A stretch of DNA of 34,268 bases from Saccoglossus kowalevskii (Eukaryota > Hemichordata > Enteropneusta > Harrimaniidae), in contig NW_003134343.1 in the NCBI RefSeq assembly GCF_000003605.2, positions 610,764 through 645,031 of the forward strand, written 5' to 3'. Of this stretch, positions 9,601-21,986 are shown one piece after another (the first letter of the stretch is position 1; every line of letters begins with the position of its first letter). The notes beneath the pieces are model-generated. The model was not told the DNA's origin and made no database searches. It saw only the letters and a program-made list of their open reading frames with translations. The position numbers and the translations under genes are program-made.

Positions 9601-10340
9601 TTGGTTTAGTTGCTTTCCATGATTTTATGTCGCATATCACAGCCGCTCCTTTCTCAATGAATGATAAAACAGAATGCAAATACAAATAACAACAATATAT
9701 TAGCAATACCTTTGAGTCGTGTAAAGCATGTTCTATGCAATCTGCCTCAGCTAGTGTATTTATTAAACGTGATTACAGTTTAGTGAGTTAAATATATATA
9801 GATTGAAAAAAACAAAGACTGTAGTATGTGAACAACAATTATAATACTAATACGCTAATCTCAATGATAATAAATACTATAGGTAGCATTAAATATACTT
9901 GAAACTAACAAACTATATGATTCATTAAACATTATCGGAAATTAAAAGCATTAATCATGAAGTCTCCCAGCATAATAACATAGCTAACCTATTCGCAGCA
10001 CTAGTTGCTCGAAAGAAACAAATACATGTGAAACAGTAAAGTGAAATTATACAATATTTGTCAACACTATGTTGTGGGTGAAAAATACGAGCTATTCGGC
10101 TACTAATGAACACTCCGTTTCTGCTTCAACTATTCCCGTTTCAGTTTTCTGAAATGACAAAAATAGATGTGAAATTAGTTATCATCATGAAATAATCATC
10201 TGATTATACTAATATTAGGCAGAGAAAGTATATATTTTTTTCAAGTCGTAAATCGATCGCGTTTCCTTGAGCGCTATAGTCGTAATATAGGACACGTTAG
10301 AATTTTATACATGTGCACATGTTGTACATGTCGCGTACCG
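6700..10340. other. AT-rich non-coding stretch, no gene seen
   Basis: Contains a (TG) microsatellite at 8018-8034 and nothing else structured. Short open frames (7632-7913, 8420-8650 and 9160-9351) are of chance length and AT-driven composition. Confidence 0.6.
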
Positions 10341-10345
10341 ATATT

Positions 10346-10962
10346 TAACACGACGCAAATTCAGTTTCTAGTCTGTCGCAGCTTATGGGTGCCCCTTGTA
10401 ATATTCCAAACGTTTCCTTTCATGGTGAGTGTGGGGGAGTCCCGATTTTTTTCCATACTACACGAAGATGTGTTAAATATTGGTGTAAACTGCTGAATAT
10501 ACCTAATCATAGATGTCAAAAAAGTGCTACAACACGCTTTACTGTAATACAATATCGGGGTTTAGGTCTAAACCACCATTTGTCAGGTTTAAAACCTATT
10601 AGTGCGTTGTAATCTCACAAATGTGTGGGATCAGGAAGAAATATTAAATATGTACGATTTTCTTGATATTTCATCTGGAAAGGTAACTATTTTATATATC
10701 GAGAAAAGTCTGCTCTGATGATATTTATCCTCGTATCGGGATTTTAACTTACAACCTGAAAAATTGTTATTTTGCTTTCAAGAATATGTTTATATTCAAA
10801 TGCTCGCCTTCCCCTATTCATCAGATTGGCTTCAGATTGAGAGTGACTGTACATAGCAAGTGGACTGGCATGTCTGCTTATGTTTACTTTGTGACGAATT
10901 TTCCGTAGAAAATGAATACCATTTCGTCTTAGTCTGTTCATTTGTTGATATTTGGCTAAAAA
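10346..10962 (+). pseudogene. Decayed LINE: C-terminal part of ORF2
   Basis: Two stretches read like the end of a non-LTR retrotransposon ORF2 downstream of the reverse transcriptase. From about 10346 to 10500 the plus strand gives QIQF, a frame change, then MGAPCNIPNVSFHGECGGVP and RRCVKYWCKLLN. These match the usual G-V-P-x-x-T-P-N, G-E-L-G-R-x-P-L and KYW pattern. From 10623 a second frame gives VWDQEEILNMYDF, and later LQIESDCT and the Cys-rich tail motif C-LLCDEFSV-ENEYHFVLVC. At least three in-frame stops and one or two frameshifts show it is dead. The order and spacing of motifs fit one truncated copy. The clade (CR1, L2 or similar) is not decided. No reverse transcriptase core is recognisable upstream, so the insertion is 5' truncated or eroded. 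Confidence 0.7.
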
Positions 10963-10965
10963 AGT

Positions 10966-11062
10966 CAGTGGCGGTGGCACCGGGGGCAGAGAAGGGCAGT
11001 CGCTCGAAAAAGATTTGGGGGGACGTCGCCCCACCCAAATCAAGCTGAACCCCTTGAAGACG
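10966..11062. repeat. GC-rich repeat-like block next to the LINE tail
   Basis: A short block much richer in G+C than its surroundings contains GGCGGTGGCACCGGGGGC and GGGGGGACGTCGCCCC, an imperfect G-run/C-run inverted pair. It abuts the end of the LINE remnant and precedes ordinary AT-rich sequence. It looks like a fragment of a dispersed repeat. Open frames over it on both strands are by-products of this composition. Confidence 0.4.
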
Positions 11063-11187: not shown

Positions 11188-12761
11188 TCATTTGTATATG
11201 GGTATGCGACTCACCAACTTTTGGTGAAAATCACGATAATGGAGACTAAATTCCTCATAATCCACCCCTTGAATCACATTTTCCAGAAAACACCAACACT
11301 TGAATATAATTTACATTACAACCCCATTATTACATATATATAATATGGGCCTTTCATTGCCACATATCACACAATATATCAACACTGTAAAAATCCAACC
11401 ATATTGATTCCTGAAAATGATGTCAAAAGGGGATCCCTTGACAATTGAAAATGTCAAAAAGGGTTTCCCTGACTATTGAAAATGTTAAAAAGGGACCCCT
11501 TGACCATTGACAATTTTAAGAAGGGATCCCTTGACCATTAAAAATGTCAAGAAGTAACCCTTGCCTATTTCGAAACATAATGTATAGCACTCTTGCCTGC
11601 CTCGTCTACTCAGAGTGCTTGTTTAATATAATCATTACGATAACAAAATAATATGTATTACTCACCGTATGATCTCCAGCTTTTGTCATTGTTCATGTAA
11701 TTTTCAAACATTTCACGAAGCATACGATAATATTCAGCTTTTGTGGGGTCATTTCATTACTGTTTTCATAATCTTGTCGTGTCTCGATTTGTCTACTGTC
11801 TTCTAAGTCACCACTCGCCTTCCTGCTAACAAATACAATTAAATTGAAATTAATGTGTACTGAGAATGAGCTACTTTTATATATAAGTTCTAACGAATCT
11901 GTTCTTGTGCAGTGAAAATTTCAAAAAGTCCACCCTAAATTATTCGAATGAAGAAAGTAGTCCATTAAATAGATGACAGTTTAATAGTAGTACCGATGAC
12001 GTTATAGCGCCCTCATTCTCTTATCCCTAACCGTGAGCGGACGGTGGTGGCGCGAATCGCTTCCATCTAAATTAATTTGGTTAGGATGTTTTTTTTTTCT
12101 CAACTGAATTCAATGAAAATAGACAAAAAATCAACAATAAAATAAACAACCGAGTTCATCGGGTGTGTGGACATAGGAAACCAATAGTGAGTCACAAAAT
12201 AAGAAAAGAAAACAAGAGAACTCGAACCGTTTTCAAGTAACTATGTATAATAACTACCTATTCTGAAAACTCTCTACAATCCTCTTCGTTAGACCAATAC
12301 TACCACCAATACAATGCGCTCTGCTCTGTGCTTGCTTCCATGAACCACTGAAAATACACAAATACATGTAATCACTTTCACCAGCCACATACGGGCACAC
12401 AACGCACGTTTCCCTATTACCATAAAGATTCAATTTCTTTCAGTACTTAAAAATTGTCATGTTTATACGCTTATAAGCCCATGCAAAACATGTGCGATTA
12501 TTTGTATTATAGAAAACATGCTTTGTCATTTGTTCCACTGTACTGATGAAGACCAATCTCGGGGTGCAGGTTTTCCATTTCAAAAACTGCATAAGCAACA
12601 AAATCATGGTAGATCAATAAATGTGTGTGGAAGAAATTTCTAAGAGAAAAATAGCTTAAGAATACGATTAAAAATATATGTATTGTAATTTACCATGACT
12701 GGGCATGTGTGTGGTGAAACGTTATGGACATCAATATGACAGTCAGTGTGACGAGTTTCAT
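11188..12761 (-). CDS. Small secreted, neuropeptide-like precursor, four coding exons
   Basis: Coding exons on the minus strand are 12761-12694, 12347-12258, 11822-11666 and 11267-11188, with GT-AG introns of 346, 435 and 398 bp. Exon 1 encodes a signal peptide (residues 1-20, starting MKLVTLTVIL, likely cleaved after HTHA). Its last two bases plus the first base of exon 2 make Cys23. The segment after the signal has Cys23, Trp26, His34, Cys35, then I-G-G-S-I-G-L-T and the dibasic Lys44-Arg45, giving a 23-residue product with one possible disulphide and an N-terminal Gln that could cyclise. The remaining ~86 residues are charged, Cys-free and rich in Tyr, Arg, Glu and Met (for example EYYRMLREMFENYM, then VDYEEFSLHYRDF), ending SRIPIYK at a TGA (11190-11188). 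The precursor is about 131 residues. Phases agree at all three junctions (2, 2, 1). Exon 3 needs one extra base in its middle to keep frame. A GTGAGT donor at 11214 could instead lead to further exons. I do not recognise the family. C..W..H.C.GG is faintly like protostome GGNG peptides, which is inference only. Confidence 0.6.
11413..11569. repeat. 31-bp tandem repeat, about five copies, inside intron 3
   Basis: Five head-to-tail units (34, 31, 31, 31 and 30 bp) follow the pattern GAAAATGTCAAAAAGGG, then ATCCCTTGACCATT. Each carries a near-palindrome such as AAGGGATCCCTT. The unit is not a multiple of three and no frame is kept, so it is non-coding. It lies wholly within the last intron (11268-11665) of the secreted-precursor gene. 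Confidence 0.8.
12006..12015 (-). promoter_or_regulatory. CTCF-like half match in intron 2
   Basis: The minus strand reads TGAGGGCGCT, one base from the core found at 918 and 22096. It lies inside intron 2 of the secreted-precursor gene. Weak on its own. Confidence 0.2.
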
Positions 12762-12810
12762 ATTCACGTTCAAGTGGCAGAAATTCTGGAAAACAAAGAA
12801 AAAGTTATTT
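12762..12810 (-). promoter_or_regulatory. 5' UTR start and splice acceptor of the secreted-precursor gene
   Basis: Directly 5' of the signal-peptide exon, the minus strand has a pyrimidine-rich tract (TTTTTCTTTGTTTTCCAG) ending at 12786. Transcribed exon therefore probably begins at 12785, leaving 24 nt of 5' UTR before the ATG at 12761. At least one non-coding exon should lie at higher coordinates. The most consensus-like minus-strand donors that I see there are GTGAGT after 14433, GTAAGT at about 13934 and GTAAGT after 14990. None is proven. Confidence 0.5.
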
Positions 12811-15063: not shown

Positions 15064-15196
15064 TTAAAGCACGGTGGTCATGACGCAGCGCGTGTTTGAA
15101 TTTCATGTAAATAAACAATGTATTTTACACGCGTTGTATACGGCGCTACGAGTCCCATATCGAACAAGAAGCAGCGCGACGACTGCCGCCCTTTAA
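15064..15196 (+). mobile_element. TTAA-flanked MITE, copy 1 (133 bp)
   Basis: Bounded by TTAA at both ends (15064-15067 and 15193-15196). It starts AAGCACGGTGGTCATGACGC and ends CGACGACTGCCGCCC. The ends are imperfect inverted repeats of about 25 bp. The interior carries ATGTAAATAAACAA and GAGTCCCATATCGAACA, shared with copy 2. No coding capacity. The size, inverted ends and TTAA boundaries suggest a non-autonomous cut-and-paste element, possibly piggyBac-like in target choice (inference). Confidence 0.7.
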
Positions 15197-17563: not shown

Positions 17564-17680
17564 TTAAAGCGCGGTGGTCGTCGCGCAGCGCGTGTTCGAA
17601 TTTTATGTAAATAAACAACGTATACGTCGCTGTGAGTCCCATATCGAACAGGACGCGGCACGACGACTGCCACCCTTTAA
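17564..17680 (+). mobile_element. TTAA-flanked MITE, copy 2 (117 bp)
   Basis: Same element as 15064-15196, again bounded by TTAA. The 5' end reads AAGCGCGGTGGTCGTCGCGC. The reverse complement of the 3' end reads AGGGTGGCAGTCGTCGTGCC, so the inverted repeats share GTCGTCG and flanking bases. It lacks a ~16-bp interior piece present in copy 1. It shares TGTAAATAAACAA and GAGTCCCATATCGAACA with copy 1. Confidence 0.7.
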
Positions 17681-19402: not shown

Positions 19403-21986
19403 TGTTTCTCTGTCTGCCGTTTTAGAAATCTAATTTAAACATGTCATTTTATTCATACGTTTTTGATTGATTGATTTATACAGGAGTTCGTCATATTCCG
19501 AATAGTGTTTCAATATTACAATGACAAAGTAAACAATCTGGACACGATTGTGATTTGATGACAGGCCGGAAATTGATGTTTGCGAGTTTTGCAAGACGAT
19601 ATAGACCATAAAATGTCACTTGGAAACGAACGTAAGAAATATAGATACATGAGGAATTACGAATTAATACGATGCCACGCGAATGAGAAATGGGTTGTGA
19701 TTATTTTGTCACTTATGATAGTCTTTCTTATAAAATTGGTTTCATAAAAATTGATTGTAATGTACGTGGATTCAGAAAAAGCGTTTGACCGCTGGGCCAA
19801 TTATCGCCGTAGTGAATTGATTTGCAGTTTTTGAAAATTGTCACATAATTGAATATTATTTTTGTGTTTTAAAAGTGTTAAGATGTTTTTTTTATTGAAA
19901 CACTTGTGGACTTATGAATCACATTTCAGTTATGGCCGATCATGTGAGTAATACGAAACGATGCGATGACGTCACAACAAAACTGTTGGAAACGATCGTG
20001 AAAAACAGCAAGAATTTCCATAATATATGATTATTTTATTTTCATGTTAAAAATGGCATTGAATTTGACAGACTGCTTACAGGCCGAAAGTATTTCGATC
20101 GTATCAACATACATAGTGTGGCACCAACTCAAGGGAATAAAACATCTACGGTCATGATAAATAGCCTGAAGTATGTTTGATAAAACTGTGCTGTAGTAAT
20201 TGTACGAAGACATAAACAGAACATTTCAAACAATTCAGGAAAAACAGCATAGCGGTATACCGTGTGAGCGCGACATATAGGAATGAGCGTCAAAGATTTG
20301 CGGGGTAATTTCGAGTGGTTTAATTCTATTACGACATTCCTACATATTCCTGTAGGTTTAGGTGCCGATTAATCTGCAAAAATGACGTTTATTGAAACGG
20401 TTTAGTGACATCCATGCGCCTTTTTCGTATTCACAGTATAACGCGAATATATACAATCGAACGTCTATAGTTTCAGCTAATCAGAACAGAATATTCGAGC
20501 GTGTGACGTCATGGAAAATATAATATATATTTTCGCAGGCGGGGAAAAGGGGGTGTATCGGGTTTATTATTTTTTCAGAAAACTAATTTAATATAACACA
20601 CTATTTACTAGCATTACTATCAGTGGGTTTAAACAACCATTTACAAGAAACCGCGATCACGTGTTTTTAAATTAAAGAATATCATGCAAATCGAGAATGT
20701 GTTAAAACAGTAAACAGTTAATTATTATTAAATAATTAATTTATTGAGATTTTTGCAAGAAACGTTTTTTTAAACACCAACGTACTGCTCGATTGCCAAA
20801 CTCGCGGGAATATTGGTTTTTCAGTGTTACTTTTAAAAACATGAGAAGAAAATTTGGAACCACGAAACATTTTAATAGTCCGATTTGTGTATATTTCAGT
20901 TATTTTATACGTGACATGCGTTCACATGGTAATATCGTAAGTGGATTATGGTTTTAGAGTAAGATATTTATTGCTATGATACATAGCTACATGGTTTTAG
21001 ATTTTGTCGGCTTAATATGTTACCTTGGCGCAAAATACAGCGTCTACCCTTAATGAAATGTATGCACGATGTCATAAGTCAATATTGTCTTATCAAACAC
21101 CGGGGGAGACAACTGATCAGTTTTCTCAGTTTATTACAATTTTATTCTGACTCTCTCTTAATAATTCCGTCTACGTAATATATCATCTGCTTCAGTTACT
21201 TGCCTGCACACTAATTATGACATTTCATGGATAAGATTAACATCGACGTGATGCATGAACAATATCTCAGGGCGGTATATTCAAGACAATAATAGTTATT
21301 GTTTGAGGCAACGAGCCATTACGATTAAATCTCGGATAATTGCAATCGTAAATTAAAGTTGTCACTGACTGGAAAAGAGGAAACAATACTGGTGTTTTCC
21401 CTCCGCAGGACGCTGATGTAATTACACAATCTGAATGTGTTCTAGAAGTGAAGAATGAAGAAACAGGTTTGCAAATTCGAATTCTAGAAATCGATCTGCC
21501 GAGGCACGTCACTGAGCCACAAACATTTTCGATTAAAAATCGGCTAGAAATCGAAATAATGAACAAATTGAGAGATAACAAAAATCTCTTATTATTGACG
21601 TAATGACGTTGTTTAATGGTTGGTATTTGCCTGTACATTTACTATATCACGGTCAATGGCAATAATATCCGCTTTAATATCGCGTTGTTAGTTCAAGCAT
21701 GTCGGTGACAGGATAAGAAGTTGCTGAGTATATCTGAATTGAGTGTTGACAGGACAATGCCGCATTGAATTTCAAAATGCTGACAGATTTATAAAAAACG
21801 GTGTACTTCATTCATCAGTTGATGGTAAACATCGTCAAATTAACCCAATATTTCAGGACAAAAATACATACACAATTGCCTATATACAGTGAAGTATGAA
21901 CGTACCTGGAATGACTTCCCTGAGAACAACATTTTTTTCAACTATGATGAATTCAACAAAGTATATTTGTTAAGTGAAGCTTAATA

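Follow-up and report, generated by a model that had tools for sequence, protein, structure and literature searches.

A probable acorn-worm gene for a secreted peptide with a single disulphide loop

In protostomes, the EP/GGNG/CCHamide peptides are defined, in the account given by PMC6617912, by two cysteines with an aromatic residue and often a histidine between them, and by Gly-Gly or Gly-Ala after the second cysteine; apart from one tardigrade, nearly all of the members it treats carry an amidated C-terminus. The receptor group that comprises those of elevenin, CCHamide and endothelin typically takes disulphide ligands, according to the part of PMC5818035 that deals with it. In the acorn worm Saccoglossus kowalevskii, bombesin-type receptors have been reported (PMC12002301) and elevenin-like receptors have been predicted, as also in amphioxus, with no precursor predicted in either in the corresponding section of PMC10175484. 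In text passages of PMC10175484, PMC12002301, PMC5627052, PMC6188537 and PMC8557429, no elevenin precursor of S. kowalevskii is named. Here we describe a stretch of 34,268 bases (hereafter the window; C2594:610764-645031 in a genome of 572 Mb and 4830 contigs) that probably holds a small acorn-worm gene, encoding a secreted peptide with one disulphide loop that would be released at Lys-Arg.

One contig of this genome, C4830 (17037 bases), is the mitochondrion, as recognised from COX1 by Pfam and from the other genes by reading their translations. COX1 is inverted, ND2 precedes ND1, and CYTB precedes an inverted ND6. Its codons at positions that we take to be conserved among animals fit ATA = Ile and AAA = Lys, with AGA = Ser at one CYTB site, and the sole AGG found sits upstream of the likely COX3 start. 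The mitochondrial code described for S. kowalevskii is that read on this contig, and its gene order is derived from that of Balanoglossus by inversion of COX1 and movement of ND1 or ND2, in the relevant passage of PMC3121625. On this evidence the genome comes from an acorn worm, either S. kowalevskii or a very close relative.

Table 1. Positions within the window of the parts of the candidate gene
Feature	Positions	Strand	Description
3' end of 5' untranslated region	12762..12785	minus	directly after strong 3' splice site TTTTTCTTTGTTTTCCAG/AATTTC
Coding exon 1	12694..12761	minus	reads MKLVTLTVILMSITFHHTHAQS plus TG
Coding exon 2	12258..12347	minus	supplies T, reads CGSWKQAQSRAHCIGGSIGLTKRIVESFQN plus AG
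Exon 3	11666..11822	minus	RKASGDLEDSRQIETRQDYENSNEMTPQKLNIIVCFVKCLKIT, hydrophilic tail RKASG..TPQK, then in-frame TGA; strong donor after 11666
Exon 4 of the earlier note	11188..11267	minus	questionable: poor acceptor, and open in a different frame only

Joined, the first two coding exons (Table 1) encode QSCGSWKQAQSRAHCIGGSIGLT-KR. The predicted signal peptide, M1-A20 (12702-12761), has a Lys in the n-region, a hydrophobic stretch, small residues and an A-X-A-like end, and so passes a simple signal rule; it is followed by Q21, S22 and two bases of Cys23, a codon that intron 1 splits and that is completed over 12694/12347. Exon 2 encodes the remainder of the looped peptide up to T43 (12287), then Lys44-Arg45 (12281-12286), IVESFQN and two bases. 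The loop is marked by C23, W26, H34, C35 and G37-G38, with 11 residues between the two Cys, and the K44-R45 pair provides the dibasic site found in neuropeptide precursors. The signal-like exon, the splice sites, the phases, the Cys pair and the Lys-Arg are all present in the DNA; expression, splicing, the disulphide, cleavage and a receptor are inferred. An earlier note, made from the letters of the window, had read the first exon as a signal peptide, the Cys codon as completed across the first junction and a 23-residue segment with Cys23, Trp26, His34, Cys35, Gly-Gly and Lys-Arg, and in all of these points our analysis agrees with it. The three junctions that it claimed all have GT..AG.

We favour an orphan, non-amidated, Cys-looped precursor of the neuropeptide type, a small secreted prepropeptide, and put the probability of this reading at about 0.5. 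Cleavage after Ala20, as predicted, would leave the 23-residue QSC-GSWKQAQSRAH-CIGGSIGLT, in which one disulphide would close the loop and the N-terminal Gln could cyclise. A prohormone convertase would then free the peptide at Lys44-Arg45, its C-terminus would stay a free acid because no Gly precedes KR, and it would signal, as a neuropeptide or hormone, through a receptor on the cell surface. The signal peptide, the basic residues and the single Cys pair would also suit a small secreted protein other than a neuropeptide, such as one of epithelial or antimicrobial function, with a loop that serves some purpose other than receptor binding, and the missing amidation signal agrees with this too; we nevertheless consider it decidedly unlikely, as peptide hormones are usually laid out in this way, with one loop directly after the signal and KR at its end, in the precursors described in parts of PMC6617912 and PMC5627052.

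The 3' part of the gene is less clear-cut. The earlier note had proposed four exons joined in phases 2, 2 and 1. Junctions 1 and 2 are indeed in phase 2 (68 and 158 nt), but junction 3 is in phase 0 (315 nt), and exon 3 contains a TGA (11695-11693) in frame with exon 2, 27 nt before it ends. The one frame that stays open through both the 3' part of exon 3 and exon 4 is a different one (AEYYRML..SYG/VDYEEF..), whose last upstream stop is at 11756-11754, and thus the four-exon protein does not exist as written. The acceptor at 11267 scores -7.4, a value that 70.5% of AG sites equal or better. On these grounds the proposed last exon does not fit; exons 1-3 are best described as coding for a secreted precursor in which one Cys-loop peptide, closed by KR, directly follows the signal peptide. 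A good donor after 11215 (fraction 0.006) lies inside exon 4, hinting that this exon, if real, would not be the last one, and there is no AATAAA on the minus strand between 12842 and 9764, which, like the stop and the unfitting exon 4, counts against the precursor reading. The coding sequence may close at the exon-3 TGA, with a product of 95 residues whose tail holds a second Cys pair; otherwise the frame is broken in exon 3, by an assembly error or in reality, before a longer tail. The exon-3 DNA occurs at a single place in the genome, so that no second allele contig is at hand to settle the frame. In the surrounding DNA, a 31-base tandem repeat (4.4 copies, 11420-11554) falls within the claimed third intron, and plus-strand frames at 10191-11045, beside the doubtful exon 4, resemble by eye the end of a LINE-type reverse transcriptase (CLLC..ENEYHFVLVC), with no Pfam match.

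The stop in exon 3 and the weak acceptor at 11267 are also what might be seen if there were no working gene here, but a chance signal-like exon with splice-like sites, or a decayed gene with its frame broken in exon 3. This reading, which we regard as rather unlikely, has against it that two sites which rank among the strongest splice sites in the window fall where the gene model requires them. Scored with approximate textbook weights, the acceptor upstream of the ATG (exon start 12785) reaches 8.4 and ranks 2 among 3086 AG sites, and the donor after 11666 ranks 2 among 4164 GT sites. The fractions of sites scoring at least as high are 0.043 (donor) and 0.063 (acceptor) for intron 1, and 0.073 and 0.008 for intron 2. 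The top acceptor of the window (score 9.8) lies elsewhere, in front of an exon-like stretch on the plus strand (21409-21600) that reads DADVITQSECVLEVKNEETGLQIRILEIDLPRH.. and is CUB-like by eye, with no Pfam family above cut-off.

The absence of a working gene is further opposed by simulation. We scanned the window for models in which a signal-like exon that starts with ATG is spliced, in phase, onto one that carries a dibasic site and two Cys, no more and no fewer; the candidate gene itself is the sole model returned. Among 4642 third-order Markov windows, a signal-like exon alone is found in 2161, the two-exon ring model in 13, the same with a third open exon of 43 codons in 1, and the full model, with a strong 5' acceptor as well, in 0, counts that flatter the model because the thresholds were fixed post hoc at the observed scores and with approximate textbook splice weights, so that the true odds are less extreme. 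The candidate is more than would be expected by chance. Behind the signal the residue make-up is protein-like: compared with 118 open stretches, its best window of 55 residues would come 3rd, and its best of 40 residues 6th among 310, the candidate being spliced and the reference stretches unspliced. The back piece is unremarkable in this respect (-0.44 over 40 residues).

Other frames lie in the region around the window. About 22 kb below the first base of the window, an open frame on the plus strand (C2594:588630-589016; L015 7867-8253) resembles another neuropeptide precursor, with KR/RR sites and amidation Gly (..LGLMFGRR.., ..YHMPVGKR..), and about 36 kb past its end, frames on the plus strand at C2594:680944-684531 (L020) resemble by eye an SLC26-type anion transporter. 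The flanks of the window itself are all N (C2594:591630-610763, 19134 bases, and 645032-679244, 34213 bases), and nearby exons therefore cannot be seen. Inside the window, two MITE-like copies (15064-15196 and 17564-17680) start with TTAAAG, end with CTTTAA and are 87-88% alike over their shared stretches.

Codon usage weighs mildly against coding. The score was trained on receptor genes, using the longest open frame at each of 29 loci out of 30, the genome having 149 such matches. Its tails against random open stretches are 0.33 (exon 2), 0.47 (exon 3, first part), 0.44 (exon 3, second part in its own frame) and 0.92 (exon 4). The exons lie at the null median or just above, with between a third and more than half of random open stretches doing as well. 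Two controls disagree: a nearby neuropeptide-like frame is above the null (tails 0.01-0.30 in 31-codon windows), whereas an SLC26-like exon is not (0.13-0.92). That the candidate does not exceed the null although one control does favours the absence of a working gene, and because of this result we keep the precursor reading at the probability given above.

The same alternative gains from the searches for relatives, none of which was found in the genome itself or in Pfam. No paralogue of the loop exon was found, a single genomic locus matching it even when the cut-off is relaxed to E 10 (only first-look candidates being scored), and the back piece matches its own two exons and one further place (C2731, E 4.8), which we attribute to chance, its surroundings not being precursor-like. 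Of 20 proteins compared with Pfam, two being the pieces of the gene and 18 coming from further open stretches in the window, none matched above cut-off; Rfam gave 0 matches at gathering scores, and 0 tRNAs were found. In the PDB, the front piece has 0 matches and the back piece 6 weak ones (best E 0.055), likewise taken as chance; no relative of the front piece appeared in bacterial/archaeal and viral contigs. The finding of no relative thus covers the own genome, Pfam, the PDB and bacterial/archaeal/viral contigs, with no animal collection among them. Peptide strings searched in literature text gave unrelated matches only, which, with sequences in figures outside that scope, says little about an earlier description.

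Compared feature by feature, the candidate precursor fits none of the GGNG/CCHamide, elevenin, bombesin and insulin families. The ring of GGNG peptides comprises 8 residues, whereas that of the candidate has 11. Like the protostome EP/GGNG/CCHamide group it would have a single copy directly behind the signal peptide, an aromatic residue and a His enclosed by two Cys, and Gly-Gly after the second Cys, here C35-I-G37-G38 (features as set out in PMC6617912). However, the candidate ends in ..GLT-KR, without an amidation Gly, and has neither Asn nor His at the peptide end. The kinship with GGNG peptides that the earlier note had offered as speculation finds no support as membership, given the lack of an amidation Gly before KR and of Asn after Gly-Gly, and an animal that is a hemichordate, not a protostome. 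The CCHamide-like peptides of echinoderms (Arnp25, and Ophionotus CCHamide-like 1 and 2) resemble the candidate in being ambulacrarian and in placing one cyclic peptide between signal and dibasic site (in the passages concerned of PMC5627052), but they are amidated and the Arnp25 ring has 4 residues (PMC4772807).

Elevenin resembles the candidate in its disulphide ring, the lack of amidation, a Gly two residues after the second Cys and an intron inside the peptide code (sections of PMC10175484, PMC4237046 and PMC5627052); for that intron the passage of PMC4237046 gives no phase, that of the candidate being phase 2. The Cys of elevenin are 8 residues apart instead of 11, and its conserved I4, D5, F11, P13, R16 and V18 have no counterpart in the candidate, G17 alone agreeing (PMC10175484, in its description of the peptide). 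Bombesin-type precursors also carry one N-terminal peptide whose code is interrupted by an intron, but with phases 1 then 0, as described in part of PMC12002301, against 2 and 2 here, and bombesins are amidated and have no disulphide (in the account of PMC5627052).

The earlier note had known no family with this Cys spacing; in fact, the 11-residue spacing is common to the B chain of the insulin family. This raises the possibility of an insulin-superfamily gene, the loop serving as B chain and a further, unseen exon coding for the A chain. The candidate has the C-x11-C spacing, the Gly after the first Cys and the C-G / C-x-G pattern of the IGF-like B chain of this genome, LCGRTLVDVLALICNGRG. 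The B-chain core positions, normally hydrophobic, are K, Q, S and H in the candidate. No CCxxxC, as in the A-chain pattern CCxxxC(x8)C, lies downstream on the minus strand in the window, where the nearest motif, C-x3-C-x8-C at 724-765, is looser and no fit, and none was found on the minus strand of a joined stretch of 114268 bases, of which 56553 are N, including 19134 that adjoin the window. Insulin-superfamily genes have a phase-1 intron in the C domain, beside which Dilp7 orthologues have one in phase 2, in the relevant section of PMC8286064; the second of these points would favour an insulin gene, while exons 1-3 (phases 2, 2, 0) contain no phase-1 junction. The four Pfam Insulin matches of the genome are, moreover, all on contig C1344. 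With no A chain found in the DNA that could be read, no phase-1 junction in exons 1-3 and no hydrophobic core, we put the insulin B chain aside as very improbable. At about 401 to 527 kb (L009-L012), C1344 carries a gene of IGF-like type together with two more A-chain exons, dilp7-like in appearance; for the latter two genes, no convincing B-chain exon was found in two stretches of 19500 bases, the second with 10841 bases N.

Returning to the Cys-looped precursor, its ligand-receptor relations can be considered by layout. Since elevenin-like receptors are predicted in S. kowalevskii without a precursor, in the part of PMC10175484 cited above, a looped, non-amidated, N-terminal acorn-worm peptide makes a testable candidate ligand. 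It is a long shot, by analogy of layout, that this peptide is the ligand, so far missing in hemichordates, of the Saccoglossus receptors of elevenin-like type or of the bombesin/CCHamide clade. If true, a deuterostome peptide would have retained its disulphide loop together with a free C-terminus, and the looped ligands of that receptor group would predate the protostome-deuterostome split. Even as an orphan, the candidate would bring a cyclic peptide into a phylum that is useful for connecting the neuropeptides of chordates with those of protostomes.
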